From Adhaeribacter pallidiroseus (GTDB lineage: Bacteria; Bacteroidota; Bacteroidia; Cytophagales; Hymenobacteraceae): a stretch of DNA of 64,000 nt. Each line of letters starts with the position of its first letter. Positions within the stretch are counted from its first letter, which is position 1. The position numbers and the translations under genes were made by a program. The stretch covers positions 3,472,001 to 3,536,000 of the forward strand of contig NZ_QASA01000001.1 in NCBI RefSeq assembly GCF_003340495.1, given 5' to 3'. This document shows positions 14,730-40,075 of this stretch, piece after piece. The notes beneath the pieces are model-generated. The model searched no databases. It was given only the letters and a program-made list of their open reading frames with translations, and was not told the origin of the DNA.

Positions 14730-16247
14730 TTAAAATGAACTGAGCGTAGTTTGCCTTCCTTCCACCAAGGGGTACTTTTTCTCTACTTTATCCAGCACCA
14801 CGTAAATAGAATCGTTAAACTCATTGCGGCCGCTTAAAACAATGCGGTTAGCACTGGGGCGGCGGTAGTGTAATTCCTGGGTTTCTTGGGCGTGGTTTTT
14901 ATTTTTATTCTGTAAATGCAATACTTGTTTTTCAGGATCGGCCTGGTAAAAGAAGTAACGGCGCTCGCCGGCCATGCCGCCCACCTCCCAACGGGTTACG
15001 CCTAAATCGCGGTTCAGTTTCTTTTTGGCGAGCTGATCGGAATCCTGGGTATTTACCTGGTTTAGCTTGGTGTTCTTTTTATCGTTTTTCACGCGCAAAG
15101 GCGAGTAGCCAATCATGCGGTCAGCAATAGCGCCGCGGTTGGTGCGGTAACTTAACGACGACCAATCTTCGAAAATAGCATCCTGCCACCGGATAGAATC
15201 GGTTGGGGAATACGGGAGCACCTGGTTGTTTAAACGAAACTCCGTAACATTGTACAGACCTTTGGTATCGGGCAAACCGGGCGTACTCGGGATATTATAA
15301 TTGTTGCCGTTGAAAAAGCCGTAGGCCCACAAACCCGCCGCTACCGGAACAAACACCATATTAAAAGTCCATTTTACGCCGTTTACCAGGTATTTCTGCC
15401 ATTTTTCGGTAAAAACGGGGTTAAAGCGGTAAGGCTGCAGAATATCTTTTTCGTTCACCAGCAGGTTCCAGATTTTAGGCAAATCGTACCAGGCTATAAA
15501 TATGCCGATGATGGCAAAGTAAGCAGCCGGTACGGCTACCCCGGCATCGTAGGCGTGGTTGGCAATGCAAATATTAAAAGTTACTACCGCCGCTAAAGCC
15601 GCTCCGAGCACCGCGGTTTTGCGGTAGAGCAGCAATAAACCCGGAACAATTTCGGCAAAACCCAGAAACACCGTATACTCAAAAGAAATACCCACGTGCG
15701 ACCAGTATAGTTTTTTTTCGGCAAAATCAATGAAGGGCGTATTGAGCATGCCCACGGTGGGGTAAACCATTTGCATCGGGAAGGCTTTTTTTAAGCCCCA
15801 GCCCACCATGCCGTACGCTAAGCGGTAGCGTGCCAGCACCCGAATCCAATAATACAATTTGCTGTATTGGGTCGATTTTTTATCGAGTAAAGTCCAGATA
15901 GTGCCACCGATGACGGCTCCCACAAAAACCAAAATCAGGTTGATGTAATTAAGTATGCCGAATACGCCTTCCTCCGATTCGATTAAAACGATTTGCGGCG
16001 GCCAGAATGCCACAATGCTTTGCCAATTGTGGTAGGTTATTTTGGAGAATTTCAGCTCCAGCAAATCCGTATAAAACTTAGGATACGTGGGAATGCATAA
16101 AAAAAGAATGTACAGAAAAGCGATCCGGAATGCAATTTTCTGAACGTTTGTCCAACTTTTCGGTTTCTTTCCTTCGGCGGGCGGTTTCGCCACAGGGGGC
16201 AACTTCTCCACGTAAGGAGTTTCCAGGCTTAATTCGTTTACTGCCAT
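14730..16247 (-). CDS. DoxX-like membrane protein with C-terminal soluble domain (paralogue A1)
   Basis: 505 residues. About seven membrane helices occupy residues 38-315, including the DoxX-like core YYWIRVLARYRLAYGMVGWGLKKAFPMQ, then a helix pair around FLGFAEIVPGLLLLYRKTAVLG. A C-terminal domain of about 180 residues follows, with GLYNVTEFRLNNQVLPYS, RWQDAIFEDWSSL, VLHLQNKNKNH and SIYVVLDKVEKKY. The closest relative in the window is 32297-33952. The DoxX/DoxD assignment rests on the core helices and is not certain. DoxD is the membrane subunit of archaeal thiosulfate:quinone oxidoreductase. It is the last gene of the susC-susD-DoxX-DoxX operon; the gap to the preceding gene is only 24 bases. 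Confidence 0.65.
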   Translation of the reverse strand: MAVNELSLETPYVEKLPPVAKPPAEGKKPKSWTNVQKIAFRIAFLYILFLCIPTYPKFYTDLLELKFSKITYHNWQSIVAFWPPQIVLIESEEGVFGILNYINLILVFVGAVIGGTIWTLLDKKSTQYSKLYYWIRVLARYRLAYGMVGWGLKKAFPMQMVYPTVGMLNTPFIDFAEKKLYWSHVGISFEYTVFLGFAEIVPGLLLLYRKTAVLGAALAAVVTFNICIANHAYDAGVAVPAAYFAIIGIFIAWYDLPKIWNLLVNEKDILQPYRFNPVFTEKWQKYLVNGVKWTFNMVFVPVAAGLWAYGFFNGNNYNIPSTPGLPDTKGLYNVTEFRLNNQVLPYSPTDSIRWQDAIFEDWSSLSYRTNRGAIADRMIGYSPLRVKNDKKNTKLNQVNTQDSDQLAKKKLNRDLGVTRWEVGGMAGERRYFFYQADPEKQVLHLQNKNKNHAQETQELHYRRPSANRIVLSGRNEFNDSIYVVLDKVEKKYPLVEGRQTTLSSF

Positions 16248-16271
16248 AATAGTCTCTTTAAGTTCAATTTT

Positions 16272-17699: not shown

Positions 17700-17750
17700 T
17701 TTATGTTTTAAATATTTTTAAAATTTTCGCAAACTGAGCTATGCTCCTGG

Positions 17751-17895
17751 CGCGAGCGTCTTCGCTCGTGTCTAACCATGTGGTAGGCCTCCGGCCGGGC
17801 GAACCAATAGGCTTTCCCTAAAGCAAATCAGCCGGCAAGTTCCAACCGGCCAGAGGCCGGACGATCATCATCACGAGCGTGGACGCTCGCGATAG
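17751..17895. repeat. REP-like palindromic element, family 1 copy 2
   Basis: Outer arms GCGAGCGTCTTCGCTCGTG (17752-17770) and its near-complement at 17872-17890 have two mismatches. Inner arms are GGCCTCCGGCC and GGCCAGAGGCC. It sits exactly between susD and the first DoxX-like gene of operon 1, and copy 3 occupies the same junction of operon 2. Confidence 0.75.
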
Positions 17896-17938
17896 AATTA
17901 AAATTTAAATCTCCTACTATAGGCAAAAATTTAAAAAA

Positions 17939-19252
17939 TCAATTGCCGTAACCGGGATTTTGGGTTAAAGCAGGATCTGCCAGGATTTCTCCGGCTGGAA
18001 TCGGGAAGATGTATTTATTCGGATCATTCAGGTTATAAACTACGGGTGCTCTTCCGGTCCGCACAATATCAAACCAGCGATGCGGTTCCAGAGCAAACTC
18101 TACGCGGCGTTCGTTCTCAATGGCCAGGGTAATTTCTTCGGGAGTAAGGGCCGTACTATTCGGCACATTGGCCCGGGCCCGTACCGCATTTAAATCACTT
18201 AAGGCTCCGGCTACATCCGGATTAGCTTTTTTCGCGCGGGCTTCGGCCCGTATTAAATACAATTCGGCGGTACGAATGCCATAAGCGGCGGAAGTATTGG
18301 TTGGGTAAATACCCCCGATAAACTGACCCAAGGCATTTTGCACCGATAAAATTTTCCGGTCGCCGCCTACGGTTGGGTCGTTTAACAAGTTGTGAATGAC
18401 GGCTTTGGGCTCCAGTTGCCGGTTACTCGTATTCCATAAACCATAACCGGTATTTAAATCAGTAACGCTATACGAAAACTCCAGCACCGACTCCGGGGTA
18501 CCCGCGGCTAAACTAAAAGGCTTCACGAGCTGGTAACTGGTATTAGCCAGAATACGGTTCACGTCGTTTTCGGCGGCCTCCCAATTACTCTGGTAAAGGT
18601 GTAATCGGGCGCGGAGTGCGTAAACCGTGAATTTGGTAGCCCGGTTCCGGACGACCGTGGCGGGTAAAAAAGTTTCGGCCTGGTTTAAATCAGCTAGTAC
18701 CTGGGCATATACTTCGGCCTGGGAGCTTTTGGAAACACCCAGTTTATCGGCTACTACTTTGGTGGGCGTCAGGAAAATTTGCACGTTGCCGAATACCCGG
18801 GCCAAATCGAAATACGAATACGCCCGGATAAAATAAGCTTCGCCCAGAAGCTGGTTTTTTAAATCGGGGGTGAGTTTTACATCATTCACCAGCGGCACTT
18901 TTTCAATGACGTGGTTCGCCCGGTTAATGGTATTGTAGAAGTTGGCCCAGTACGTCGATAAAAACCCGATATCCGAACGCAAATCGTAGTTAATTACATT
19001 TAAGTCGGTTTGGGCATTGTTTAACGACCGCACATCGCCGCCCGATTGCAGAATGGTATTTTGGAAACCGCTGCTGTAGTTTAAGCTGGCTAAAGAACGG
19101 TAAGCGCCCCGCACGGCGGTTTCGGCCGAGGCTTTGTCGAAGATGGTATTTTCGTCGGATACCCGGTCGTACGACTCTACATCCAGGTAATTTTCGCAAG
19201 ATGATAGCAGCATGCTTACAAAAAGCACCGGCCAGATAAGTAGCTTCTTCAT
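17939..19252 (-). CDS. SusD/RagB family outer-membrane lipoprotein (operon 1)
   Basis: 437 residues with a lipoprotein signal peptide (Cys19 in LLSSC). SusD-type sequence follows: AVRGAYRSLASLNY, the helical NTINRANHVIEKVP and LLGEAYFIRAYSYFDLARVFG. The C-terminal RTAELYLIRAEARAK, LNAVRARANVP and NERRVEFALEPHRWFDIVRTGRA are family hallmarks. SusD proteins form the lid over the SusC channel and bind the substrate at the cell surface. The gene lies 11 bases downstream of its susC. It is a paralogue of 35603-36952. Because the partner genes are DoxX-like rather than glycosidases, the ligand is probably not a polysaccharide; that is inference. Confidence 0.93.
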   Translation of the reverse strand: MKKLLIWPVLFVSMLLSSCENYLDVESYDRVSDENTIFDKASAETAVRGAYRSLASLNYSSGFQNTILQSGGDVRSLNNAQTDLNVINYDLRSDIGFLSTYWANFYNTINRANHVIEKVPLVNDVKLTPDLKNQLLGEAYFIRAYSYFDLARVFGNVQIFLTPTKVVADKLGVSKSSQAEVYAQVLADLNQAETFLPATVVRNRATKFTVYALRARLHLYQSNWEAAENDVNRILANTSYQLVKPFSLAAGTPESVLEFSYSVTDLNTGYGLWNTSNRQLEPKAVIHNLLNDPTVGGDRKILSVQNALGQFIGGIYPTNTSAAYGIRTAELYLIRAEARAKKANPDVAGALSDLNAVRARANVPNSTALTPEEITLAIENERRVEFALEPHRWFDIVRTGRAPVVYNLNDPNKYIFPIPAGEILADPALTQNPGYGN

Positions 19253-19263
19253 GATAAAAAAAT

Positions 19264-22200
19264 TTAAAAAGTAAGGTTCGCGCCAAATTGAAGTCCGCGG
19301 GGTTGCGGCGGGGTAGCCGTATCTAAGCCATCCAGGTTTTGCCCCGCGCTACCCGATGATTCGGGGTCGGCGCCGGTGTATTTGGTAGCAATCCAGAGGT
19401 TGGTACCCAAGGCGTATAGCCTGACTTTGTTTAATTTTAAGCGGTTGGTTAAGCTTTGCGGTAGGGTGTAGCCCAGCGTAACGGTTTTTACCCGTACAAA
19501 AGAGGCATCTTCCAGGTAGCGGCTGTTTTGCTCGATGTTGTAGTTGTTCCCCACGCTGGTTACCCGCGGCGTATTGGTAATGTCACCCGGCTTTTGCCAG
19601 CGGTCCAGTTGGCTTTTCAGGATAGAGCGGGAAGCATCGCGGGTACCGCCGCCTTCCAGAATGTATTTGTTAAAGTTAAAAACTGAGTTACCGTACTGGT
19701 AGGTGAGTAAAACGTTTAAATCAAAGCCTTTATAAGAAAAAGTGTTGGTAAAACCGCCGTAGAATTTCGGAATTAAATTACCTAGTAGTTGCCGGTCGGC
19801 CTGGGTGAGTTTACCGTCTTTGTCGACATCGTCAAACACGGCGTTACCGGTTTCGGGGTCGACGTACAATTGCTTATACAACCAGAAACTGCCTAATGCA
19901 GCGCCTTCCTGGGTGCGGCGGTATTCGCGGGCTTCGAAGGTAATGGGGCTCACCAGCTTTTCGGCGCGGTTTACGTTCCGGGCCAAATTAAAATTAGACG
20001 TCCAGCTAAAGCCGTTAACCTGGTTTTGGATGTTTACCGTAGAGATGCCGAGTTCAATGCCTTTATTGCTTACTTCGCCGGCGTTGGCCAACGTGCTGCC
20101 GTAACCCGTGGACGATGGTACCGGCAGGTACAATAAAGCATCCGTAGTGTATTTGTAGTAAGCATCCACATTTACGAGCAAGCGGTTAGCGAATAATCCT
20201 ACATCCAGGCCAGCGTTATAGGTGGTGGTTTTTTCCCATTTTAAATCTGGATTTTCGAGTTGCGAAGGAGCAATGCCGGGTTTGGGACCGCTGGTTAAAT
20301 TATCCGGGTACTGGGCAATGCCCGTCCATAAACCGCGGGAAGCGTAATCGTTAATCCCGTTTTGGTTACCCGCCGAACCGGCACTCACGCGCAGCTTTAA
20401 CTCGGTCAACTGGTTTAAGTCCTGCAGAAAATCTTCTTGTTTCAGGCGCCACGAAGCCCCAATGCCGGGAAAGTAGCCCCAGCGATTATTTGCCCCGAAT
20501 TTAGAAGAACCATCAGCCCGCAGAGAACCTTCCAAAAAGTACTTATCGGCAAAACTGTAGTTAATCCGGCCAAAGAAAGAAGAAATAGTAGACTTGGATT
20601 TCCGTTGCTCCGAGGTGCGAATGGAAGCCGCCGATATTTGCTGAAAAGAGTTATTAGGGAAACCAGACCCGGTTTGCGCAGCAACTGTTTGCGTGGTGCC
20701 TTGAATACTGTTACCCAGTAAAACGGTAATGGCGTGTTTGGTGCCTAAATCTAAATTATAGGTTAAGGTTTGTTCGTTTTGCAGTAAGGTTAGATTGGTA
20801 AAAACCTCGTTCACGTACCCCGGCGGATTAGGCGCTCCTCCAATAATGGTTTGGTCGTTAAAAAACTCGCGCTCGTTATAATGGTTATAATCCAAGCCCA
20901 CCGAAGTTTTAAAACGAAGCCCCGGCAGTATGGCCACTTCCACAAATTGGTTACCAATGTAGCGAATGCTGCGGGTAGAAATATTGGTAATATCGGTATT
21001 GGTTAAATTATCAATGTTTTCGTAAATGGAACCCCGGGCGGGCGTACCATCCGGATTGGTGAGCGGCAAATAAGTAGGATGGTGCAGCGCGGCCAGTAAA
21101 TGCCCGGCTTGCTGACCAGCCCCGCCCCTAACCTGCTGCCGGAACGAGCGGTAGGCCCCATTGCTGGAACTAAACGTTATTTTTTTGCTGAGCTTGGTAT
21201 CCAAGTTAAGTTTAAAGCTGGCCCGTTCAAATTTGGCCGGTTTCAAAATTCCTTCCTGGTTGGTGTAACCCGCGCCTAAATTGTACCGGATATTTTCGCT
21301 GCCACCCTGAATATTTAAATCGTAGTTTTTCGTTTGCGCCGTCCGGAAAACCCTGCTCATGCGGTCATAAGTTTGCTGTTCTTCGGGTGTGCCGCGGCCG
21401 GGAACCCCGTTAATGACTTCTTCTTTCGGGCGGAAAGGCCGGTTGGCGTACGTTTGGTTTAAACTGGGTTTATCTATCCCGGAGTTGATCCATTGCTCGT
21501 TCACGAGCAGCGCGTGTTCCGGGCCGGTAGTTAACTCCCACAACCGGCTTTTATCAGCTTGCTGCCAACCCTGCGAAACATCTAAACTGTATCGGGGCTT
21601 GCCAGCTCCGTATTCGCCGCGCTTGGTGGTAACCAGAATAACGCCGTTGGCTCCCCGGGAGCCGTAAATGGCAATGGCACTGGCGTCTTTTAAAACTTCC
21701 ATGCTTTCAATATCGGCGGGGTTGATGTCGGCTAAAGGAGAAGTTTTTTTATTTCCTAAATCGATAGATGCTAGTGAGTTATTATTTACCAGCACCCCAT
21801 CAATCACGTACAAAGGGTCGTTGCTGGCATTAATGGAGGCAGTTCCGCGGATTTGTACTTTCACGCCTTCGCCGGGGGTGCCGGAAAACGTATTCACCTG
21901 GATGCCGGCGGCTTTCCCCTGCAATTGCGCATCGAAGCTGGCCACCGGGGTTTGTTTGGTTTCGGCGGGGTTAATGGTGGTAATCGCGCCAACCAGACTT
22001 TTCCGGCTTTGGGTACCGTAACCCACCACCACAACTTCGTTCAAGGCTTTGGTATCTTCCTGCAGCGTTATTTTTAAATTTTTCTCATTTTTAAGAGGTA
22101 TTTCTTTAGCTACGTAGCCAATAAATGAAAAAACCAGCACACTGTTTGGGTCCGGAACGGCCAACTGAAAACTTCCATCCGCCGCAGTTGTGGTACCGAT

Positions 22201-22419
22201 ATTCGTGTTTTTAACCAGCACCGAAACCCCGATTAAAGGTTCGCCGGATTCCGTAATTACTGTACCCGATACATTTTCATTAAAGGCAGCTTTAAATTTG
22301 AACACACTTCTGGATTTAGCCAAATCCGGAGCAAAAACAGCTTCGGAAGCGAGGGATGTTGATTCCGAAAGAACAAGCAATAGCAATAACTTACTACTCT
22401 TTTGTAGTAGTTTTTTCAT
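19264..22419 (-). CDS. SusC/RagA family TonB-linked outer-membrane receptor (operon 1)
   Basis: 1051 residues. A signal peptide is followed by a CarboxypepD_reg-like domain (about 50-125, VSGTVITESGEPLIGVSVLV). A plug begins near LNEVVVVGYGTQSRKSLVGA, the SusC signature DPLYVIDGVL comes next, then IYGSRGANGVILVTTKRG. A long beta-barrel ends in the terminal phenylalanine of QFGANLTF. With its SusD it should import a ligand too large for porins, energised by TonB. It is the first gene of operon 1. The 5' leader carries a hairpin conserved with the second susC (22453-22502). Its barrel is closely similar to the paralogue at 36965-40075, including the spacing of motifs around the plug. Confidence 0.94.
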   Translation of the reverse strand: MKKLLQKSSKLLLLLVLSESTSLASEAVFAPDLAKSRSVFKFKAAFNENVSGTVITESGEPLIGVSVLVKNTNIGTTTAADGSFQLAVPDPNSVLVFSFIGYVAKEIPLKNEKNLKITLQEDTKALNEVVVVGYGTQSRKSLVGAITTINPAETKQTPVASFDAQLQGKAAGIQVNTFSGTPGEGVKVQIRGTASINASNDPLYVIDGVLVNNNSLASIDLGNKKTSPLADINPADIESMEVLKDASAIAIYGSRGANGVILVTTKRGEYGAGKPRYSLDVSQGWQQADKSRLWELTTGPEHALLVNEQWINSGIDKPSLNQTYANRPFRPKEEVINGVPGRGTPEEQQTYDRMSRVFRTAQTKNYDLNIQGGSENIRYNLGAGYTNQEGILKPAKFERASFKLNLDTKLSKKITFSSSNGAYRSFRQQVRGGAGQQAGHLLAALHHPTYLPLTNPDGTPARGSIYENIDNLTNTDITNISTRSIRYIGNQFVEVAILPGLRFKTSVGLDYNHYNEREFFNDQTIIGGAPNPPGYVNEVFTNLTLLQNEQTLTYNLDLGTKHAITVLLGNSIQGTTQTVAAQTGSGFPNNSFQQISAASIRTSEQRKSKSTISSFFGRINYSFADKYFLEGSLRADGSSKFGANNRWGYFPGIGASWRLKQEDFLQDLNQLTELKLRVSAGSAGNQNGINDYASRGLWTGIAQYPDNLTSGPKPGIAPSQLENPDLKWEKTTTYNAGLDVGLFANRLLVNVDAYYKYTTDALLYLPVPSSTGYGSTLANAGEVSNKGIELGISTVNIQNQVNGFSWTSNFNLARNVNRAEKLVSPITFEAREYRRTQEGAALGSFWLYKQLYVDPETGNAVFDDVDKDGKLTQADRQLLGNLIPKFYGGFTNTFSYKGFDLNVLLTYQYGNSVFNFNKYILEGGGTRDASRSILKSQLDRWQKPGDITNTPRVTSVGNNYNIEQNSRYLEDASFVRVKTVTLGYTLPQSLTNRLKLNKVRLYALGTNLWIATKYTGADPESSGSAGQNLDGLDTATPPQPRGLQFGANLTF

Positions 22420-22452
22420 AATTTACGTAATTTGGGTTAACAATTTATTACC

Positions 22453-22502
22453 GGCTTTCCCGATTCTTGGCCTGGTCCAGAGGTCTTGTGATCGGGAAAG
22501 CT
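22453..22502 (-). promoter_or_regulatory. Conserved hairpin leader upstream of susC (operon 1)
   Basis: An 11-bp perfect stem (22454-22464 with 22491-22501, GCTTTCCCGAT) encloses, on the minus strand, CACAAGACCTCTGGACCAGG. The counterpart at 40110-40158 keeps both the stem and the loop block ACAASACCTCTGGWCCAGGC, at the same distance (about 55-70 bases) from the start codon. It contains the small dyad CTGGWCCAG. Confidence 0.6.
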
Positions 22503-22923
22503 ATTTTTTTAAATTTTTACCGGCAAACCACTTCTCACCGGTAATTATTAATATTTATCTATCTGTACTTTATCGCATAGGCATTCGTTAAAATCATTAA
22601 AAGTTAAAACAAGCATTGTTTGCCAGACTGATTTGGCCATTAGCAATAGTATTGCAGAGCTTTATATTTAATTAGATACCCGGGATTGTACATAACCCGA
22701 CTACAAGAATTGGAGGCACCCAAAACGAGTACCATAGACTGATTACACCGATCTATCAACACAGAACAATTTTAAATTTTACACTGGTTTTGTCGATGAG
22801 GAGGAACTCGAAAGTAAATGTTTTTACAGTAACCATAGTATTATGCGTTTTAGGTGATAGTTAATAGTCGCGCCGTTTAATCCAGGAAGTTTGCTTGCCG
22901 GCTGGCGCGGCTTTTTACCAGTT
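22503..22923. other. Upstream region of operon 1
   Basis: No gene is called. A 30-codon minus-strand frame (22548-22640, starting MAKSVWQTM and containing a CLC triplet) is a weak candidate leader ORF. No exact TAnnTTTG element was found for this operon. GC-rich inverted segments near 22866-22915 may end the peroxiredoxin transcript. Confidence 0.3.
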
Positions 22924-23556: not shown

Positions 23557-23587
23557 AGCTATTTGTTTAAAAAGTAAATAATTTTCG

Positions 23588-23658
23588 CGTCGCGGAACGG
23601 ACTCGAACCGTTGTACAAGATCTGGCGGACCTTTGCTTAGCCACTCAGCCACTGCGAC
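23588..23658 (-). tRNA. tRNA or tRNA-like gene; apparent anticodon GCC (Gly), atypical
   Basis: On the minus strand a 71-base cloverleaf can be drawn. The acceptor GTCGCAG pairs with CCGCGAC (one A-C mismatch). The D-arm is GCT..AGC with GG in the loop. The anticodon stem is AAGGT/ATCTT with loop CCGCCAG, and the T-arm is a perfect AACGG-TTCGAGT-CCGTT. The anticodon would read GCC, but position 33 is C instead of the almost universal U, and the D-arm wording GGCTGAGTGGCTAAGC looks Leu/Ser-like. No CCA is encoded. It may be a decayed tRNA, a tRNA-like RNA or an unusual functional tRNA. Confidence 0.6.
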
Positions 23659-26140: not shown

Positions 26141-27391
26141 TTATTTTTCCGGTTTGTTTAAAACCTGTCCGTCCCTTTGAATCAGCCAGGTAGTAATGGG
26201 GTTGAAATGGTAGCCCCCTTTGTTATCGCCGCGGGCGGCAACTAATTGGCTAAAGGTGGGTTGGGTATAACCGGTTTCGTCGACGGCCCGGCTCATGATT
26301 TCGGTTTCGCTGCCGTTCCATTGCCACAAATGCCGGAAATAGGTATGGGCTTTATCCAGCACGGGATCCTGCAAACGGGCGAGCTGCCAGGTTTTACCGG
26401 CGTCGGTGCTTACTTCTACTTTCGTAATTTTGCCCCGACCGCTCCAGGCAATCCCGCGTATTTCAATCCAGCCTTTTTCTACCTGCACCGGGTAAGCCGG
26501 GAAAGTAATAATCGAGCGGGCATCCATATCGAAACTAAACTGCCGGATTTTGCCGTCTTTTACGGGTTCGGTGTATTTAGAAGTTTCTTCGCGCGTCATA
26601 AACGGTGCATCCGAAAACTCCAGGCGGCGCAACCATTTTACGCTGGTATTGCCTTCCCAACCGGGTAAAAACAAGCGGGCCGGATACCCTTGCTCCGGAC
26701 GAATAGCTTCGCCGTTTTGGGCGTAAGCAATCATCCCGTCCTGCAAGCCTTTTTTTACCGGAATACTGCGGGTCATGACGGCAGCATCGGAACCTTCGGC
26801 CAGAAACCAGGTGGCATTGGGTTTTACGCCTACTTCCCGGAACAACGTGGAAAGCAGCACGCCTGTCCATTCGCTTTGGCTGGTTAAACCGGCAATTTCC
26901 TGGGGCGTAATTTTACCGACCGGGTTGCTCCGGAAATTACCCGAACATTCTAAAAAGCAAATCCGGGAAAAAGCCGGGAACCGCTTTAAATCTTTTAAGG
27001 TGAATTTCATGGGCTTCTCTACCAGACCATGAATATACAATTCGTACTCCTCCGGGTTGATGGTGGGCACACCGCCGTGGTGCCGTTCGTAATGCAAGTC
27101 GGCGGGCGTAATGGTGCCGTACAAATCCTGCAAAGGCGTGCGCGAGGACGTGTCGGAGGGTTTCCGGACCGGCTTTTCGTACCCCGACCGGGTGCCTAAC
27201 TCACTGGGCAAGGGCCCTTGTTTTTTGGTGGGATCGTCCGGTATTACGGCGGCTTCCGGTATGGCCGCCTGCACGGTTTTGCCAACCGCAGTTTGTACCA
27301 ATACTACCGCCGCAGTTGCCGCTCCGCCCAGCAATTTCCGGCGACTCAGCGGTTTATGAAACAAAGGCGTATCTTCCGTTTCCGACTTCAC
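26141..27391 (-). CDS. soxC: SoxC, molybdenum subunit of sulfane/sulfite dehydrogenase
   Basis: 416 residues with a Tat signal (SRRKLLGGAATAA, 16-28). The mature protein follows SoxC closely: TPLQDLYGTITPADLHYERHH and INPEEYELYIHGLVEKP. The molybdopterin-ligating cysteine is Cys149 in FLECSGNF, followed by SEWTGVLLSTL, QGYPARLFLPGWEGN, VKWLRRLEF and the dimerisation domain with WSGRGKITKVEVSTD. SoxC oxidises sulfane sulfur or sulfite in the periplasm and passes electrons to SoxD, encoded just upstream (61 bases). No soxXYZAB genes are in the window, so this may act as a free sulfite dehydrogenase. Confidence 0.93.
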   Translation of the reverse strand: MKSETEDTPLFHKPLSRRKLLGGAATAAVVLVQTAVGKTVQAAIPEAAVIPDDPTKKQGPLPSELGTRSGYEKPVRKPSDTSSRTPLQDLYGTITPADLHYERHHGGVPTINPEEYELYIHGLVEKPMKFTLKDLKRFPAFSRICFLECSGNFRSNPVGKITPQEIAGLTSQSEWTGVLLSTLFREVGVKPNATWFLAEGSDAAVMTRSIPVKKGLQDGMIAYAQNGEAIRPEQGYPARLFLPGWEGNTSVKWLRRLEFSDAPFMTREETSKYTEPVKDGKIRQFSFDMDARSIITFPAYPVQVEKGWIEIRGIAWSGRGKITKVEVSTDAGKTWQLARLQDPVLDKAHTYFRHLWQWNGSETEIMSRAVDETGYTQPTFSQLVAARGDNKGGYHFNPITTWLIQRDGQVLNKPEK

Positions 27392-28100: not shown

Positions 28101-28365
28101 TAACTGTTTAGGACGATAGCTTGCTTTTATAACCAAGCTAGTTTTCAATACAATTTTCTGCTTTTCCGTAGTTAATCAGTTGACGCTGCAAACATTAAGT
28201 TTCATCTTGAATATCACTTAACTAGGTTTTCTGAAGTTATTTTCTTCGTCAACCCTTACTATTCTCCCTATTCCAACTTATTTGTCGGAATTAAACAAAC
28301 ACAAGCCAGTAGCAGCCGTAACTAAAAGAGTGAATCATTTATCTTCCACTTAAAAGCTTTTTGCC

Positions 28366-28760: not shown

Positions 28761-30050
28761 TTACTTACCTCCAAACAAGACAAAGGCAATTACCAGCGTA
28801 ATAAAAATATTGAAGGTTTGCGCAATCAGGAAAGCGTAAAGAGGCTTTTTGCTTTGCTTGTTAAACAAATCGGCAAAATTAGTTTCCAAGCCAATGCTGG
28901 TGAAAGCCAAGGCAAACCACAAGCCTTGCAAATTCTTTAAACTGTCTTTTACCTGAGCCGTAGTTTCGGGCGAGATGAAGAAAGAAAAAAGCAAGGAAGC
29001 CCCGATAAAACCTAACACGAACTTTGGGAAACGCTCCCAGATAACCCCTAACGTTGGCTTGCTGTTTGGTTCCTGGGAATTGGGATGTTTGGTGTAGGTC
29101 CAGTAAACCGAAATAGCGAAAGCCGCTAAACCGAGTAACACATTCTGCGAAAACTTTACAATCGTGCTTATTTTTAAAGCCGTTTCGCCCACCAGCGTAC
29201 CCGAGGCAACCACAGCTCCGGTGGTATCAATGCTGCCGCCTAACCAGGCGCCGGTAACTTCCTGCGGAAAGTTAAAATACTGCGCCACGTAGGGCATAAA
29301 AATCATCATGGGGATGGCCGTAATTAACACCATCGAAATCACGTACGACAGCTTCTTGGAATCACCCTTAATAGCCCCTGAAGTAGCAATTGCCGCCGAA
29401 ACCCCACAAATAGAAACCGCGCTGGAAATCATCATGGTGAGTTCGTCGTCTACTTTTAGTTTTTTGCAAGTCCAGTAAGCCAGGTACCACACCGATACGA
29501 CTACCAGCAAAGCCTGAATTAAACCCAACGAACCCGCTTTTAAGATGTCCGAGAAAATAACGCTGGTGCCCAGCAGCACCAAACCAATTTTCACGAATAA
29601 CTCCGTCGTCAGCGTAGAGCGAAACCAATCGGGTAATTTAAAAAAGTTGCCGATGATCAAACCGATGGAAAGGCTAAAAATAACGGCTTCCAGGTTTAAG
29701 GCTTTTACCTGCTGGTTACCCGCCAGAATTAAGGCCAGAATGGTTAGTACATAGACCACCGGGAAAACGAGCAAATACGATTTTAAAGGTTTCCCAATGA
29801 GGCTGGCTCCCAATCCACCAATGGTAAAAACCAGCAAAAACTGCAAAGCAATAATGCCCAGGTTACCGGCATTTAAAACTTTCGCGGTTAATTCCGCCGG
29901 ATTACTCCAGCCAAATACCGGTACCGGCAGTAGAAATCCCGCAATGGCTAACAAAATGATTAATCCTCCTAAAATAACGACGGTCCAATCTTCCGAAACG
30001 GCAAACCGGGTTTTGGGCGGAGAAGTAACTGTTGCTTGGGTTGACGACAT
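28761..30050 (-). CDS. YeiH-type putative sulfate exporter
   Basis: 429 residues with about ten to eleven membrane helices from residue 27 onward. Family features include GLGASLIGKPLK, LSIGLIIGNFFKLP, the central SICGVSAAIATSGAIKG and WLGGSIDTTGAVVASG, and the late ALAFTSIGLETNF. The family (Cons_hypoth698/UPF0324) is annotated as sulfate export, partly because members accompany sulfite-forming pathways such as taurine degradation. Here soxCD lies nearby, which fits export of sulfate or sulfite. The promoter and an operator box lie directly upstream (30073-30098), with ATG about 34 bases after the expected start of transcription. Confidence 0.9.
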   Translation of the reverse strand: MSSTQATVTSPPKTRFAVSEDWTVVILGGLIILLAIAGFLLPVPVFGWSNPAELTAKVLNAGNLGIIALQFLLVFTIGGLGASLIGKPLKSYLLVFPVVYVLTILALILAGNQQVKALNLEAVIFSLSIGLIIGNFFKLPDWFRSTLTTELFVKIGLVLLGTSVIFSDILKAGSLGLIQALLVVVSVWYLAYWTCKKLKVDDELTMMISSAVSICGVSAAIATSGAIKGDSKKLSYVISMVLITAIPMMIFMPYVAQYFNFPQEVTGAWLGGSIDTTGAVVASGTLVGETALKISTIVKFSQNVLLGLAAFAISVYWTYTKHPNSQEPNSKPTLGVIWERFPKFVLGFIGASLLFSFFISPETTAQVKDSLKNLQGLWFALAFTSIGLETNFADLFNKQSKKPLYAFLIAQTFNIFITLVIAFVLFGGK

Positions 30051-30521: not shown

Positions 30522-31928
30522 TTAAAGCCCGGTTAGCTGCGTGAAACCCACACATGCCGTGTACCCCCCACCCGGCGGCGTGGAAGAAGAACAGATATAA
30601 ATTCCTTTGGCCGAGGTGCGATAAGGTGAAAGGCTGATAACTGGTCGCGTATACAATTGCTGTACGTCGATAACGCCCCCGTTAATGTCGCCGCCAATGT
30701 AATTGGGGTTATACGCTTCTATCTGGGCGGTATTCATTACGCTGCGGCCAATAATTAAATCGCGGAAACCGGGTGCAAAACGCTCTACTTGTTTTTCGAT
30801 TATTTCGGTCCGGTCGAGCGTGGAGCCGTTGGGTACGTGGCAATAGGCCCAGGCCACCTGCTTGCCGGCCGGGGCCCGGGTTGGGTCAAATAAGCTTTGC
30901 TGCGCTAATAATACGAATGGCTTATCGGGGTGCTGCCCGCTGGCACTTTGCTTTTCCGTGGCCGCAATTTCCTCGAAGGTATTGCCGATGTGGATGGTGC
31001 CGGCGTTCCGGCATTCGGGGGCGGTAAACGGAATCGGACCATCCAGAGCCCAATCAATTTTAAAAACGCCCATGCCGTAGCGGTACCGATTGAGTTGCCA
31101 TTTATAAATCGACGAAAAGCGATGCCCCGCGATTTCTAGTAACTGCCGCGGCGTTACATCCAGCAAAACCGCCTTTGCAGAAGGCAGCTGTTCTAATTTT
31201 TTTACATAGTAACCTGTTTCAATCTTCCCGCCTAACGAGACAAAGTAAGAAGCCATGGCATTGGCCATTTGCTGGGAACCTCCTTTAGGAATTGGCCAAC
31301 CCCGTAAGTGTCCCACGGCCATTAAAACCAACCCAATGGCCGAAGTAGCCAGATTGTTTAAGGGCTGAATGTTGTGCGCCGCCATTCCGCCCCAAAGCCC
31401 CCGGGCTTCCATGGTCCGGAAACGTTTGGCCAAGAGAGTAGACGGCGGCAAGGCTTTTAAACCAAACTCCGCCATGGCAATCGGGTATTTGGGAATAGGC
31501 AAAGGCCCTAAAACATCCGGGGCCAGCTTAGGCCAGTCCCGCACGGTAGGCTCCATCAGACTGAGGTAAGTCTGTTTATCTGCCCCCAACAATTCAGCTG
31601 TTTCTGTTATCGATTTTTTTAAAACCGCGGCGGTGCCGTTATCAAAAGGGTGCGCGGCTGCAATTTCCGGGTAAATAAAATCCAGGCCGTGTTCGTGCAG
31701 CGGCAAGGTGCTCATGTAAGGCGAACCGGCCGCCATGGGGTGAATGGCCGAGCAAACGTCATGCACGAAACCGGGCAAAGTTAATTCTTTCGACCGTAAT
31801 CCGCCCCCGATCGTGTTATTGCCTTCAACTAGTAATACCGAAAGCCCGGCTTGCTGCAACCGGATACCGGCGGCTAATCCATTGGGCCCGGAACCCACTA
31901 TTACGGCATCAAAATCTGTTTTCGTCAC
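30522..31928 (-). CDS. FAD-dependent oxidoreductase of the phytoene-desaturase/PYROXD2 type, frameshifted near its end
   Basis: 468 residues as read. The N-terminal FAD motif is VIVGSGPNGLAAGIRLQQAG, followed by GGGLRSKELTLPGFVHDVCSAIHP, typical of NAD(P)/FAD-dependent carotenoid-desaturase-like proteins (PYROXD2 group). The central substrate domain has GWPIPKGGSQQMANAMASYF. The C-terminus reads STPPGGGYTACVGFTQLTGL and stops at 30522. One base more in the run of six C at 30564-30569 restores GGGVHGMCGFHAANRALKD and FKISKV to a stop at 30493-30495. That is the conserved end of the family, so the true gene spans about 30493-31928. The function is unknown. Confidence 0.87.
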   Translation of the reverse strand: MTKTDFDAVIVGSGPNGLAAGIRLQQAGLSVLLVEGNNTIGGGLRSKELTLPGFVHDVCSAIHPMAAGSPYMSTLPLHEHGLDFIYPEIAAAHPFDNGTAAVLKKSITETAELLGADKQTYLSLMEPTVRDWPKLAPDVLGPLPIPKYPIAMAEFGLKALPPSTLLAKRFRTMEARGLWGGMAAHNIQPLNNLATSAIGLVLMAVGHLRGWPIPKGGSQQMANAMASYFVSLGGKIETGYYVKKLEQLPSAKAVLLDVTPRQLLEIAGHRFSSIYKWQLNRYRYGMGVFKIDWALDGPIPFTAPECRNAGTIHIGNTFEEIAATEKQSASGQHPDKPFVLLAQQSLFDPTRAPAGKQVAWAYCHVPNGSTLDRTEIIEKQVERFAPGFRDLIIGRSVMNTAQIEAYNPNYIGGDINGGVIDVQQLYTRPVISLSPYRTSAKGIYICSSSTPPGGGYTACVGFTQLTGL

Positions 31929-35602: not shown

Positions 35603-36952
35603 TTAATAACCCGGATTTTGTTCCAACCCTTTATCAGCGTTCAATTGGTCAATCGGAATCGGCAGCACGTATTTATTCGCATCGGTTACTCCCAAAACTT
35701 CGGCCACCCGGCCAATCCGGATTAAATCATACCAGCGGTGCGGTTCAAAGGCAAATTCTACGCGGCGTTCGTTTTCAATGGCCAGCAATACTTCGGGTTG
35801 CGTAATGGCCGGACTAGGCGCTAAATCGGCGCGGCTGCGTACTGCATTTAAATCCGCTAAAGCTTCCGGCAATTTATTTAGTTGCGCCCGAGCTTCGGCC
35901 CGGATTAAAAACAACTCGGCAATCCGGATCACAAAAGTAGGATCGGTAGCCGGGCTGCGGTAATACATGTTGCCGTACCACAATCCCTGGGTAGTTTTCG
36001 CGACTAAGGCGTTGCGGTTCCCTCCTACCGTAGGGTCATTTACCAGGTTTACAAAAGCATCGTTGGGTGCCCATTGCCGGGTGCCCCCGTTGGCCGGCGG
36101 TTGCCAGCTGTTGCGGTGGGTGTTCGTGGAAGTCGGGCTATAGTAAATTTCAAAAATAGACTCTTCGGTGCCGCGGGCATTGTTGGCGAAGAAAGCGCTG
36201 TACGGTTTTACCAGTTTGTAATTCGCCACGTCATCCACCAGTTTACTGGCGTAGGTTTCGGCTTGGGCCCAATCTTTTTGGTACAGGTAATAACGGGCCA
36301 GTAAAGCCCAGGCGGTTTTTTTAGTAGCCCGGTACCGGTTAGTTGTTTCGGGTAATAGTTTTTCGGCCTCGGTTAAATCTTTTAAAACCTGGGCGTAAGT
36401 TTCGGTTACCGAACTGCGGCGAATGCCTTCGTTGTCGGTGAGTTCTTTGGTAGGCGTGAGTACTAACTGTACACCACCCCAGGTACGCGCCAAATCGAAA
36501 TAAGCCAAAGCCCGCACGAAGTAAGCTTCGCCTAATAATTGGTTTTTTTTCTCCTGGGTAAAAGTAGCATCCGTAACGGCCGGTACTTTTTCAATGATAT
36601 GGTTGACGCGGTTGATGGTCTGGTAAATAGCGGCCCAGGTGCTGGCCACCGTAGCATTATCGGCGGTTACGTTGTGGTTTATAAACTGCGCCACGATAGA
36701 CTGCGAACCCGTCCATTGAATATTATCGCCCTGAAAATAACCGATGGATTGAAAATTGGTGCCGTAATAATTCGCTCCCGCCAGCGCTCCGTATAAACCC
36801 CGTACGGCCGTTTCGGCGGTTACGCCATCCACAATGGTTTGGTCGTCCACGATGGCTTGCCGCGGTTCTACTTCCAGGAAATTGTCGCAGGAAGCCAAAC
36901 TCAGGGTCAACACGAAGGGCAGTATATATCTGGTATTTTTAAAAAATTTCAT
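35603..36952 (-). CDS. SusD/RagB family outer-membrane lipoprotein (operon 2)
   Basis: 449 residues with a lipoprotein signal (Cys22 in LSLASC). SusD hallmarks are AVRGLYGALAGANYYGTNF, YQTINRVNHIIEKVPAVTD, LLGEAYFVRALAYFDLARTWG, RIAELFLIRAEARAQ and NERRVEFAFEPHRWYDLIRIGRV, with the C-terminus ending LEQNPGY. It is the partner of the SusC encoded 12 bases upstream. It aligns throughout with 17939-19252, including the final LPIPIDQLNAD and QNPGY, so the pair arose by duplication of the operon. The ligand is unknown. Confidence 0.93.
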   Translation of the reverse strand: MKFFKNTRYILPFVLTLSLASCDNFLEVEPRQAIVDDQTIVDGVTAETAVRGLYGALAGANYYGTNFQSIGYFQGDNIQWTGSQSIVAQFINHNVTADNATVASTWAAIYQTINRVNHIIEKVPAVTDATFTQEKKNQLLGEAYFVRALAYFDLARTWGGVQLVLTPTKELTDNEGIRRSSVTETYAQVLKDLTEAEKLLPETTNRYRATKKTAWALLARYYLYQKDWAQAETYASKLVDDVANYKLVKPYSAFFANNARGTEESIFEIYYSPTSTNTHRNSWQPPANGGTRQWAPNDAFVNLVNDPTVGGNRNALVAKTTQGLWYGNMYYRSPATDPTFVIRIAELFLIRAEARAQLNKLPEALADLNAVRSRADLAPSPAITQPEVLLAIENERRVEFAFEPHRWYDLIRIGRVAEVLGVTDANKYVLPIPIDQLNADKGLEQNPGY

Positions 36953-36964
36953 CTCTGTGAAAAC

Positions 36965-39900
36965 TTAAATGGTAATGTTAATTCCGAATTGAATGGTGCG
37001 CGGCTGTGGCGGCGTTCCCAGGTCTAAGCCCTGTGTATTCTGGTCGGTGTTGGTTACGTTTGATTCCGGATCCGGGCCGGTGTACTTGGTGAGAAGGAAC
37101 AAATTAGTACCCACTACGTACAGGCGCAGATTATCAATTTTAACCCGGGATAACAGATTTTTGGGCAGCGAATACCCTAGGGTAAGCGAACGAAGCCGCA
37201 GGAACGAGCCATCTTCTAAAAAGCGGCTGTTTTGCTCTAAGCGGTAGTTGTTGCCAATGCCGGTTAAGCGCGGAACATCCGTTTCGTCGCCGGGCTTTTG
37301 CCAGCGATCCAGTTGGCTGGCGAAAATGATCCGGTTAGCATCGCGGGTACCGCCGCCTTCGCCGAAGAACCGGTTGTGGTTCCAGACTTTATTGCCGTAT
37401 TGGAACGAAATCAGCACGCCGGCATCAAAACCTTTGTAAGTAAAGTTATTGGTCAGGCCACCGAAGAATTTGGGCGAAGCAGTGCCCAGAATCTGGCGGT
37501 CAGCGGCGGTGATTTGGCCGTCTTTGTTTACATCTTCAAACACGGCATTACCGGTTTGCGGGTCTACGTAACTTTGTTTGTAGGCCCAGAAAGAATACAT
37601 CGGGTAACCTTGTTGCGCCCGCAATAAATCGCGGCTACCGTAAACGGTCGGGATAGGCAGTTTTTCAATTTTATTGATGTTGCGCGATACGTTTAAATTC
37701 GTGTTCCAGGTAAAGTCGCCGGCTTGAATATTGACGGTGTTGATGCCTAACTCAAAGCCTTTGTTGCTGATTTCGCCGGCATTGGTAATGTAGGTCGCAA
37801 AACCGGTGCGGGCGGGTACGGGTAATTGCAGCAAGGCATCGGTGGTGTATTTAGAGTAATAATTAAACTCCAGACCAATGCGGCCATCAAATAAACCTAC
37901 GTCTACCCCGGCGTTTACCTGGCGGGTCCGCTCCCATTTTAAATTGGGATTAGCCACTTGTTGCGGCGCAATGCCCGGCTTATCGCCGCTGGTAGCATTA
38001 TCGACGTAACTCACGCCACCGGCCCACAAACCTAAAGGCGCAAAATCGTTGATGCCGTTTTGGTTACCGGTTACCCCAAAGCTACCCCGCAGTTTTAAAT
38101 CGCTCAGAGCGGTTACATTTTTTAAAAAATTCTCTTCTTTTAAGCGCCAGGCACCCCCAATAGACGGGAAGTAACCCCATTGGTTATTGCCCCCGAAGCG
38201 GGAAGAACCGTCGGCCCGAATGGTAAACTCCAGCAGGTATTTTTCATCAAAATTGTAATCCAACCGGGAGAAGAAAGAAGCCAGCGAATTTTTCGTCCAG
38301 GTTTGGGTAGACGTACGCGTAGCTGCATCCGAAATTAGGGTAAACGAGTTACTCGCGAAGTTACTGCCCTGGGCCGAAGTGTTGTTCAGGACATCGCTTT
38401 GTAAAGTATTACCTACTAAAGCGCCAATAGTATGTTTGCCGCCAAAATGCTTGCGGTAAGTAAGCGTTTGCTCGTTTAACCAGGAAGTTTTTTGAGTTAA
38501 GCCCGAAGTAGCTAAACCATTGGTGGGAGCCGCGCCGAGCTGGGTTTTATCATTCCAGTATTCCGATTCGTCGTAGTTATTATAATCGACGCCCCAGCTG
38601 CTGCGGAATTTTAAGCCCGGGATAATTTCGGCATCCACGAACAAGTTACCGATGTAGCGCAAGCTGGTAGAGTTAACGTCGTAGTTATTCAGGAGTACAT
38701 CCAGGTTATCAAAACCGGCGTAACGGGCCGGGCTCCCATCCGGGTTGTTCTTGGGCAGATAAGTAGGCGTATGCAGCGCTGATTGCAGTAAACCACCCTG
38801 CGGACCGTCGCCGGCGCGGGCCTGGTTGCGGTACGTACGCGACACGGTATTACTCACCCCAACCTGCACTTTGTCGTTTACTTGCTGATCGATGTTTACT
38901 TTAAAGCTGGCGCGTTGCAGGTAAACCGGTTTAATAATGGCTTCCTGTTTGGTGTAACCGCCGCCGATGTAATATTTGGTATTGGCGTTACCGCCTTGCA
39001 AAGATAAATCGTAGTTCGACAAGGTAGCCGTCCGGAAAACATCGCCTAAACGATCGTAGGTTTGTTGTTCTTCGGGCAAACCACGGCCGCCTTGAGCTAC
39101 GGGCCGAAACGGGCGGTTTTCAAAAGTTTGTTTTAAAGCCGGATTATCTATCCCGGAGTTGATCCAGTATTCGTTGATCAAGGCGGCGTGCTCCGGACCA
39201 GTAGTTAAATCCCAGAGTTTGGCAGCTTTAGCAAAACCTTGCGACGTGTTAAAAGTTACTTTGGGTTTGGTATTATAGCTACCGCGTTTAGTCGTCACAA
39301 TTACCACCCCGTTGGCGCCCCGCGAACCGTAAATAGCGGTAGCATTGGCATCTTTTAAAACTTCAATGCTTTCAATATCTGCGGGGTTAATATCCGCTAT
39401 GGGCGACGTAGCTTTGCCGCCGGTATTAACGGTTTGTAAGCTAGTATTATTTACGAATACCCCATCTACTACGTACAGCGGGTCGTTGCTGGCATTAATG
39501 GAAGTAGCGCCCCGCACCCGGATAAAAATACCTTCGCCGGGTACGCCGGTGCTCGACGAAATCTGCACACCCGATGCCTTGCCTTGCAACTGCGCCGCGA
39601 AATTACCACCCGGTATGTCTTTGGTTTCGGAAGGATTTACTTTACTTACCGAACCTACCAGGTTTTTACGCTCCTGGCTGCCGTAACCCACTACTACCAC
39701 TTCTTTCAAAGCTTGGGTATCTTCGGCCAGAGTAACCTGCACCGGATTCGGGCCATTTACCGGAATTTCTTTGGTAGTGTAGCCAATAAACGAAGCCACC
39801 AAAGTACCCGCGCCGTTCGGTACGGTTAACTGAAAGGAACCATCGTTGCCGGTGGTGGTGCCAATGGTAGTGTTTTTTAAAACAATAGTTACGCCGGGCA

Positions 39901-40075
39901 ACGGTTCGCCGGAAGGTCCGGTTACTTTGCCGGTAACGGGTACGTCAGGATTATACAATTTCCGGTTTTTGATACCGGAGGCAAGGGGAGTAGAAAAAGA
40001 ATTGGCTAGTAAAGGTGTTCCATAAAGTATAAGCAAGAAGAATACTTTACTGCTTCGGGAGAGCAGCTTTTTCAT
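36965..40075 (-). CDS. SusC/RagA family TonB-linked outer-membrane receptor (operon 2)
   Basis: 1036 residues. A signal peptide is followed by a CarboxypepD_reg-like domain (VTGKVTGPSGEPLPGVTIVL). The TonB plug region has LKEVVVVGYGSQERKNLVG and the SusC signature DPLYVVDGVFV, then IYGSRGANGVVIVTTKRG. The barrel closes with RTIQFGINITI. It is the first gene of operon 2 and a clear paralogue of 19264-22419, sharing INPADIES.EVLKDA.A, GPEHA.L.NE.WINSGID and the final PPQPR..QFG. The leader is long (about 495 bases from the predicted start site). It contains an operator box, two small ORFs and a hairpin conserved with operon 1. Confidence 0.94.
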   Translation of the reverse strand: MKKLLSRSSKVFFLLILYGTPLLANSFSTPLASGIKNRKLYNPDVPVTGKVTGPSGEPLPGVTIVLKNTTIGTTTGNDGSFQLTVPNGAGTLVASFIGYTTKEIPVNGPNPVQVTLAEDTQALKEVVVVGYGSQERKNLVGSVSKVNPSETKDIPGGNFAAQLQGKASGVQISSSTGVPGEGIFIRVRGATSINASNDPLYVVDGVFVNNTSLQTVNTGGKATSPIADINPADIESIEVLKDANATAIYGSRGANGVVIVTTKRGSYNTKPKVTFNTSQGFAKAAKLWDLTTGPEHAALINEYWINSGIDNPALKQTFENRPFRPVAQGGRGLPEEQQTYDRLGDVFRTATLSNYDLSLQGGNANTKYYIGGGYTKQEAIIKPVYLQRASFKVNIDQQVNDKVQVGVSNTVSRTYRNQARAGDGPQGGLLQSALHTPTYLPKNNPDGSPARYAGFDNLDVLLNNYDVNSTSLRYIGNLFVDAEIIPGLKFRSSWGVDYNNYDESEYWNDKTQLGAAPTNGLATSGLTQKTSWLNEQTLTYRKHFGGKHTIGALVGNTLQSDVLNNTSAQGSNFASNSFTLISDAATRTSTQTWTKNSLASFFSRLDYNFDEKYLLEFTIRADGSSRFGGNNQWGYFPSIGGAWRLKEENFLKNVTALSDLKLRGSFGVTGNQNGINDFAPLGLWAGGVSYVDNATSGDKPGIAPQQVANPNLKWERTRQVNAGVDVGLFDGRIGLEFNYYSKYTTDALLQLPVPARTGFATYITNAGEISNKGFELGINTVNIQAGDFTWNTNLNVSRNINKIEKLPIPTVYGSRDLLRAQQGYPMYSFWAYKQSYVDPQTGNAVFEDVNKDGQITAADRQILGTASPKFFGGLTNNFTYKGFDAGVLISFQYGNKVWNHNRFFGEGGGTRDANRIIFASQLDRWQKPGDETDVPRLTGIGNNYRLEQNSRFLEDGSFLRLRSLTLGYSLPKNLLSRVKIDNLRLYVVGTNLFLLTKYTGPDPESNVTNTDQNTQGLDLGTPPQPRTIQFGINITI

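Follow-up and report, generated by a model that had tools for sequence, protein, structure and literature searches.

The two operons analysed here lie in a 64,000-nt stretch of the 6.4-Mb genome of Adhaeribacter pallidiroseus (NZ_QASA01000001.1, positions 3,472,001-3,536,000), hereafter called the window. Each operon has the gene order susC-susD-DoxX-like-DoxX-like, and the two DoxX-like proteins are referred to as B and A (Table 1). Open reading frames (ORFs) were called with a simple longest-ORF script, so start positions may be off. An initial annotation, made from the sequence alone, had described two paralogous operons of this composition, and all eight ORFs were found again at its coordinates, in its order and on the minus strand; both B copies do have 475 residues, and the shared sequence that it had reported in all four genes is upheld by our alignments. 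SusC1 and SusC2 are 56% identical over 1054 columns, and SusD1 and SusD2 are 47% identical over 437 columns. Both SusC proteins also exceed the cut-off of the SusC signature TIGR04057 (68.4 and 66.7 bits for SusC1 and SusC2, cut-off 46.2), and the N-termini of both SusD proteins read as lipobox-like. The four DoxX-like proteins can be aligned end to end, the other three sharing 36, 37 and 40% identity with A1 in a four-way alignment; the B1-A1 identity given in Table 1 extends over 483 columns (E 7e-85). The paralogy of the two operons is far above chance. The nearest paralogue of SusC2 in its own genome is SusC1 (57%), with the runner-up at 39%. Apart from the two operons, this genome matches the DoxX-like family at E <= 0.01 only once, in a distant single copy (45.9 bits).

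A recent tandem duplication was considered and rejected: identity to the proteins of other genera (up to 75-81% in operon 1 and 70-71% in operon 2) is higher than between the two operons. The two operons are therefore not recent duplicates, as B1 is 75% identical to its Pontibacter counterpart (locus L049) versus 48% to B2.

The initial annotation had further stated that the DoxX-like proteins are the sole partners of SusC and SusD. This does not hold, because SoxC, a monohaem cytochrome c, a YeiH homologue and an FAD-dependent oxidoreductase lie between the operons, within the very interval that it covered, and all four recur elsewhere. The YeiH homologue scored 99.5 bits against TIGR00698, under the cut-off of 232.6. 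An RR motif (Tat-like) is visible in the SoxC leader, and SoxC may well be exported through the Tat system. One CXXCH motif was found in 40 of 40 SoxD homologues. No glycan enzyme was detected in the two window runs or among the scanned genes between them.

Table 1. Coordinates of the two operons, the genes between and beside them and the leader hairpins in the window
Feature	Position	Strand	Remarks
SusC1 (operon 1), TonB-dependent outer-membrane transporter	19264..22419	-	TIGR04056 855 bits, cut-off 368.25
SusD1 (operon 1), surface lipoprotein	17939..19252	-	PF07980 and PF14322 over cut-off
DoxX-like B1, 475 aa	16272..17699	-	no Pfam/NCBIfam family at cut-off; AF2 model
DoxX-like A1, 505 aa	14730..16247	-	B1-like architecture plus barrel loop insertion; 35% identity to B1
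SusC2 (operon 2)	36965..40075	-	TIGR04056 882.7 bits, cut-off 368.25
SusD2 (operon 2)	35603..36952	-	PF07980 and PF14322 over cut-off
DoxX-like B2, 475 aa	33984..35411	-	alignments
DoxX-like A2, 551 aa	32297..33952	-	alignments
FAD-dependent oxidoreductase (CrtO/CrtI-like)	30522..31928	-	NF045689 101.1 bits, far under cut-off 1000
YeiH homologue, putative sulfate/sulfite exporter	28761..30050	-	PF03601 183.3 bits, cut-off 24.5
SoxD-like monohaem cytochrome c	27453..28148	-	PF13442/PF00034
SoxC, molybdopterin sulfite/sulfane dehydrogenase	26141..27391	-	TIGR04555 equivalog 481.1 bits, cut-off 420
SDR oxidoreductase, YfcH family	13575..14477	-	TIGR01777 249.8 bits, cut-off 207.35; occasional partner, operon-1-type loci
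Leader hairpin, SusC1	22451..22509	-	ends ~32 nt before SusC1; covariance model R1 75.9 bits, own training copy
Leader hairpin, SusC2	40109..40165	-	ends ~34 nt before SusC2; covariance model R1 77.2 bits, own training copy

Conservation of the module and its sulfur-oxidation partners

Homologous loci were retrieved with peptides of the DoxX-like family, which biases the set toward full-length members; 78 loci from genome contigs were obtained from the best 80 of 165 confirmed stretches. We scored 80 loci, namely 77 of these 78 (L072 was omitted, having no called DoxX-like ORF) and 3 from a phylum sample, with partner labels taken from hidden Markov models (HMMs) built for this analysis, some of them on single sequences. 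The same-strand runs contain SusC in 78 and SusD in 77 of the 80 loci, so the neighbourhood and co-occurrence survey that the initial annotation had proposed bears out the association, in loci chosen by family peptides. The FAD oxidoreductase follows with 49 loci, YeiH with 36, SoxD and SoxC with 26 each, the YfcH-type SDR and an S51 peptidase with 9 each and an MBL-rhodanese protein with 7; ECF/FecR regulator genes are present in some runs. Clustering of the ORFs of the 78 loci returned the identical gene string again and again. Counting the two of the window, 81 runs have two DoxX-like genes in 69 cases, three in 10, four in 1 and one in 1. We also searched a sample of 390 genomes of the host order, Cytophagales, which overlaps the locus set and counts related genomes separately, and a draw of 296 genomes from the phylum; at most 4-5 candidates per genome were scored in these searches, and copy numbers are therefore minimum values. 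Of the 96 DoxX-like matches listed for the order sample, 92 have another within 400 bp. Full-length DoxX-like proteins were found in 4 genomes of the phylum draw (the window's own included), with a SusC-SusD run in all four. Genera with the locus include Pedobacter, Chitinophaga, Spirosoma, Runella, Dyadobacter and Pontibacter, and one Flavobacterium. SusC-SusD-DoxX-like-DoxX-like is a real, conserved module.

DoxX-like proteins that occur mostly without SusCD, which the initial annotation had named as contrary evidence, were met only in a distant branch of unpaired relatives (L155-L171; most ~430 aa, some with a diverged barrel). None of the 17 loci examined for this branch has an adjoining SusCD, and one has a SusD gene several genes off on the opposite strand. 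As a control, we inspected 20 further SusC loci from this genome, each spanning 19 kb and picked from 44 SusC matches, and the HMMs detected no DoxX-like, FAD, YeiH, SoxC, SoxD or S51 genes there. Some control loci have ECF/FecR genes, and one of the 20 (L265, G000:C1:3579000-3598000) has an MBL-rhodanese homologue, at 600 bits to the family HMM, a few genes from an unrelated SusC.

The link with SoxC was followed through the same samples. In the order sample the DoxX-like family (E <= 1e-90) is present in 41 genomes and SoxC over its cut-off in 33, and all 33 are among the 41 (Fisher p 1e-40, uncorrected for relatedness). Moreover, of the 34 SoxC genes, 33 have a DoxX-like gene at a distance of 10 kb or less, and 22 have one within 1.5 kb. 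The DoxX-like gene near SoxC is a single, less similar copy in two cases (G581:C56 and G650); a single divergent DoxX-like gene was also seen in locus L211, on the other strand. In a set of 39 genomes (that of the window and 38 relatives), full-length family members and over-cut-off SoxC occur in the same 5, and in the phylum draw SoxC exceeded the cut-off in 2 of 296, the window's genome and G289. The tie between SoxC and the DoxX-like family is thus close within the order and less clear beyond it, and SoxC is not obligatory.

When the first DoxX-like protein from every run is placed on a tree, 79 runs fall into two sub-types (two loci are counted twice, and partners were scored anywhere in the locus, beyond the run too). 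Operon-2-like runs are accompanied by SoxC in 28 of 41, YeiH in 18 of 41 and YfcH in 0 of 41, and operon-1-like runs by YfcH in 10 of 38 and YeiH in 21 of 38. The two sub-types stand close together both in the window and in Pontibacter qinzhouensis (L049 and L087, same contig). Since the sub-types differ in their SoxC and YfcH partners, we read the two operons as old, specialised paralogues, that is, as sub-types of one locus.

Several relatives carry further genes that bear on the substrate. Loci L059 and L081 have added genes for a cysteine dioxygenase (CDO)-like protein, a rhodanese and an MFS transporter, and L081 has two thioredoxin-like genes as well. In several runs without SoxCD there is an MBL-rhodanese gene, mostly with an unnamed protein of ~290 aa. 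A cyanophycinase-like S51 protein lies inside several runs (one copy scored 130.9 bits, cut-off 126.6). The one SoxC gene of 34 that is away from DoxX-like genes is on a Spirosoma oryzicola plasmid (NZ_CP089541.1, L204:5227-16200), in a run of SusC, SusD, amidohydrolase, LLM monooxygenase, amino-acid permease, cytochrome c and SoxC; this genome has a DoxX-like pair on another contig. The best model for the LLM monooxygenase is alkanesulfonate monooxygenase (246.6 bits versus a cut-off of 518.2), and the plasmid run looks like an organosulfonate uptake locus. The trio of amidohydrolase, LLM monooxygenase and permease is also found alongside a DoxX-like gene (L212) or pair (L213). The partner genes of L059/L081, L204, L212, L213 and the S51 runs therefore suggest organic, amino-acid-like sulfur substrates. 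OAH sulfhydrylase was found in the run of 2 of the 80 loci and of L206, and a cysteine desulfurase in 1 run (best model the encapsulin cargo type, 624.6 versus 800 bits, in a gene cut by the end of the locus).

Other observations concern the surroundings of these genes. S51 proteins with signal-peptide-like N-termini lie in or near operons, for example at L212:12312-13214 and L078:2889-3815. In L206, L207, L208 and L214, the genes immediately downstream of the DoxX-like pair encode another SusC-SusD pair, which belongs to a different clade, a protein of 572-591 aa, a DUF1684 protein and SoxD-SoxC, the 572-591 aa protein having a His-rich N-terminus and TPR repeats in those scanned. In the window, a PIG-L deacetylase gene (possibly BshB; 25387-26106, minus strand) adjoins SoxC, and on a Hymenobacter plasmid the DoxX-like pair has downstream of it a gene annotated as bshB1 (L250:14170-14904); these neighbours hint at a bacillithiol link. 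A ChrB_C-AraC fusion regulator and a chromate-transporter homologue are encoded at 10016-12299 (plus strand), and because both clusters recur in L046, L058, L080 and L092, the two may handle a sulfur oxyanion. The peroxiredoxin ORF at 22924-23658 (minus strand), as called, overlaps the tRNA-Gly gene at 23587-23658, and its true start is therefore probably downstream.

The DoxX-like family and the leader hairpin

None of the four DoxX-like proteins of the window reached a Pfam or NCBIfam cut-off. They gave a single MauE match (13.3 bits versus a cut-off of 27) and no DoxX match at E <= 1. Among 98 family members, matches at E <= 1 were to MauE in 26 (best E 0.0044), DoxX_2 in 7 (0.0088) and DoxX in 6 (0.01). 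DoxD and DoxA, which we take to be PF04173 and PF07680, were not among the best 25 of the 34 families matched by these members, with no direct DoxD/DoxA comparison made. For one relative, NCBI names B a 'DoxX family protein' and A a 'hypothetical protein'. The initial annotation was right in calling the shared C-terminal domain unrecognised, since it is nameless in Pfam and NCBIfam for the window proteins.

AlphaFold2 (AF2) models were obtained for B1 (pLDDT 93.1, pTM 0.89) and A1 (pLDDT 81.8, pTM 0.81, with a low-confidence loop insertion in the barrel). As we read the models, both proteins would consist of seven membrane helices followed by a C-terminal eight-strand barrel. Judged by the mean loop charges of 173 sequences, the N-terminus lies inside and the barrel is probably periplasmic. 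A Foldseek search with both models revealed nothing at E <= 0.001. The anti-sigma factor RsfG and a designed barrel came out on top, and many lipocalins ranked next (E ~0.02-0.5, mostly with high probability); the only recurrent whole-chain matches, in the best 50 rows per model, were gamma-carboxylase structures (E >= 0.07, TM-score <= 0.26). A sequence search against solved structures gave only low matches to ion channels and kinases, with a best E of 0.15. Free-standing C-terminal barrels were rejected as a candidate, since a search with the barrel alone, which scored up to 12 candidates in each genome, had matches in 12 of the 296 genomes, all of them inside ORFs that the whole-protein search had matched.

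E202 is invariant in the family (100%), and K157 (98.8%), Q162 (97.7%), N233 (99.4%), R212 and Y236 (both >97%) are nearly so. Four of these polar residues, K157, Q162, E202 and N233, are in or near the membrane part. Cysteine-based redox chemistry in the DoxX-like pair was rejected, as no alignment column is above 30% Cys.

A hairpin of 57-59 nt precedes each susC gene of the window (Table 1). The covariance model R1 was trained on 8 copies from four same-genus genomes. It also matched A. rhizoryzae and the region upstream of both Pontibacter SusC genes (52.8 and 43.3 bits), with unchanged spacing, and no other of 90 sources matched at E 0.01, so the hairpin is so far confined to two genera. 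The 20 other SusC loci searched in this genome do not have it, their top score being 19.3 bits (E 0.08). Four pairs of the hairpin are changed on both sides, a number reached by 5 of 500 shuffles in an alignment that is structure-fitted and of related sequences; the count of further pair types was not above that of the shuffles. Rfam, run over the whole window, reported tRNA only and gave no match for the hairpin. The hairpin is possibly a cis-regulatory RNA. An upstream motif, TCTG[GA], was rejected as a mark of the module: it is comparably frequent in module and other SusC leaders (23 of 92 versus 5 of 19) and therefore non-specific.

A proposed organosulfur locus and its alternatives

We propose, with a probability of roughly 0.55, that the operons are sub-types of a SusCD-linked locus for the capture and oxidation of organosulfur compounds, ending in the oxidation or export of sulfite. 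SusD and SusC would bind an organic molecule that carries sulfur (a thiol, a sulfinate or a sulfonate, of the amino-acid or peptide kind) and import it into the periplasm. There, the A/B pair, as seven-helix inner-membrane proteins with periplasmic lipocalin-like barrels, would bind the molecule and share in its quinone-coupled oxidation and, with the FAD oxidoreductase or alternative enzymes, free the sulfur as sulfite or sulfane. SoxCD would oxidise the freed sulfur in the periplasm and pass the electrons to cytochrome c, with the MBL-rhodanese protein possibly taking the place of SoxCD, and the YeiH homologue would export sulfite. Periplasmic sulfur oxidation is suggested by the RR leader of SoxC, the monohaem SoxD and the occurrence of MBL-rhodanese where SoxCD is missing. 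Sulfite export here by the YeiH homologue is inferred. The quinone coupling is put forward because of the DoxX/DoxD resemblance and the membrane residues only and, together with the exact A/B reaction, is the least certain step. The available excerpt of a study on thiol-degrading Advenella puts forward a CDO homologue in one cluster with rhodanese, along with sulfite oxidation and a putative exporter of sulfate, and reports a dithiodipropionate cluster that includes a DoxX-family gene (PMC5373536). This parallel, the SoxC leader, SoxD and the MBL-rhodanese proteins together point to organosulfur import by SusCD, sulfur release by A/B and the FAD enzyme, and a role of SoxCD and YeiH in dealing with sulfite.

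Of the two functional guesses in the initial annotation, the link with sulfur stands, as the partners are sulfur-oxidation genes, but its sulfur limitation does not, because these partners point to the oxidation of a sulfur source. Likewise, a conserved module with SusCD is retained, whereas its make-up of DoxX-like proteins only is not.

A number of findings weigh against the organosulfur proposal. The DoxX-like pair lacks both a conserved Cys and a recognised cofactor site, and the FAD oxidoreductase resembles carotenoid/isoprenoid enzymes, with no obvious fit to sulfur. SoxC is missing from all 38 operon-1-like runs and from 8 of the 41 order genomes with the DoxX-like family; in the phylum draw, 3 of the 4 genomes that encode full-length DoxX-like proteins lack it. 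Conversely, G289 (a 360-contig assembly) is SoxC-positive with only a distant DoxX-like copy and no full-length match, and the run L211:2499-12720 comprises a module-type SusC-SusD, S51, SoxD, SoxC, FAD and YeiH and no DoxX-like pair. Finally, some loci contain glycan enzymes: PL14 in 6 (all Chitinophaga), GH43 on the opposite strand in 7, and GH43 with an arabinofuranosidase in the run of L153.

We weighed four other explanations. The first, which we consider rather unlikely, is an inorganic version in which polysulfide, thiosulfate or elemental sulfur is the substrate, the DoxX-like pair is a thiosulfate/sulfane:quinone oxidoreductase, and SoxCD and MBL-rhodanese are sulfane oxidases. According to the excerpt available, DoxAD is a thiosulfate:quinone oxidoreductase (PMC6704655), which counts for this version, as do the weak DoxX/MauE resemblance of the pair, the SoxC equivalog match and the MBL-rhodanese or rhodanese genes in some runs. 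However, a complete Sox pathway was rejected, since SoxB exceeded its cut-off (550) in 0 of 9 module genomes, with a best score of 256.5 bits. SoxY (PF13501) gave no match in either 39 or 9 genomes, in a search whose control was silent too (the Paracoccus plasmid tried as control also had no match). In addition, small anions usually cross the outer membrane via porins, and the genes for alkanesulfonate-monooxygenase-like, amidohydrolase, cyanophycinase-like and amino-acid-permease proteins in some loci point to organic substrates.

The second explanation makes the DoxX-like pair a handler of the substrate rather than an enzyme: SusCD would hand the ligand over to the periplasmic barrel, and the membrane domains would move it into the cell or on to partner enzymes. 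The predicted eight-strand, lipocalin-like barrel in both A and B and the lack of conserved Cys are in keeping with it, and few recognised inner-membrane importers were found in the runs, though many run genes fell outside the scan. We nevertheless regard it as quite unlikely, because the invariant or nearly invariant polar residues in or close to the membrane part (E202, K157, Q162 and N233) suggest a reaction or quinone site, and because permeases accompany some runs (L071, L081, L204 and L212).

A lipid or isoprenoid pathway (e.g., of a sulfonolipid or quinone), in which the barrel binds a lipid that the DoxX/GGCX-like domain and the CrtO-like FAD enzyme modify, seems very unlikely. It would account for the CrtO/CrtI-like FAD partner and for the whole-chain matches to vitamin-K-dependent gamma-carboxylase described above, but it leaves the SoxCD, MBL-rhodanese, CDO-like, rhodanese and S51/permease partners unexplained. 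An ordinary glycan utilisation locus with unrelated sulfur neighbours, which would account for SusCD and for the PL14, GH43 or arabinofuranosidase genes near or in some runs, is already disfavoured and highly improbable, because no glycan-enzyme cluster is common to more than 7 of the 78 loci (many unclustered run genes being outside the scan), whereas FAD, YeiH and SoxCD recur in-run across many genera versus 0 of 20 control SusC loci.

SusCD systems are known mostly for the import of glycans and peptides. If the organosulfur proposal is right, a conserved SusCD locus tied to SoxCD, YeiH and thiol/sulfonate genes would open sulfur compounds as a substrate class, account for SoxC in order genomes without SoxB (9 tested) and give a testable role to a DoxX-like membrane family. 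Direct testing is possible, as the locus occurs in several named isolates. In the open-licence literature subset that we searched, no paper has both DoxX and SusD, and the titles and abstract openings among the matches listed describe no locus combining SusC/SusCD with SoxC/SoxCD, sulfite dehydrogenase or sulfonate. One paper, a Dyadobacter species description, was matched by SusD and cyanophycinase together. With these surroundings, the locus makes a good candidate for a SusCD locus of a new type. A bolder statement, which we make tentatively and think doubtful, is that it represents a Bacteroidota counterpart of the glycan loci in which a new family of paired seven-helix proteins, with ligand-binding barrels in the periplasm, couples the oxidation of an imported sulfur compound to the quinone pool, with SoxCD working as a sulfite/sulfane dehydrogenase outside the Sox pathway.

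Comparison with known systems

The module resembles a polysaccharide utilisation locus in having SusC/SusD at the head of the run and ECF/FecR genes in some runs. However, its recurrent partners are DoxX-like proteins and sulfur-oxidation genes, with no widely common glycan enzyme. With the Sox pathway it shares SoxC, over the equivalog cut-off, and a SoxD-like cytochrome; three proteobacterial plasmid copies of SoxC (L205, L226 and L227) likewise adjoin a cytochrome c, with no other sox-named gene in the stretch.

The DoxX-like proteins have a weak profile resemblance to DoxX/DoxD/MauE and the thiosulfate:quinone oxidoreductase DoxDA, but differ in their longer membrane part with a barrel, their A/B pairs and their association with SusCD. 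The recurrent weak match of the B1 and A1 models to the vitamin-K-dependent gamma-carboxylase fold is not evidence of membership. The eight strands of the barrels in both models, together with the lipocalin matches, none of them at E <= 0.001, may point to a lipocalin/calycin fold.

A further parallel in gene content is to organosulfur degradation, i.e., of mercaptosuccinate and dithiodipropionate and by alkanesulfonate desulfonation, which, in the excerpts available, shares with the module CDO-like, rhodanese, sulfonate-monooxygenase-like, sulfite dehydrogenase and YeiH-type genes (PMC5373536). The descriptions of these pathways, as excerpted, are without the SusCD uptake system and the paired DoxX-like barrel proteins that set the present locus apart.

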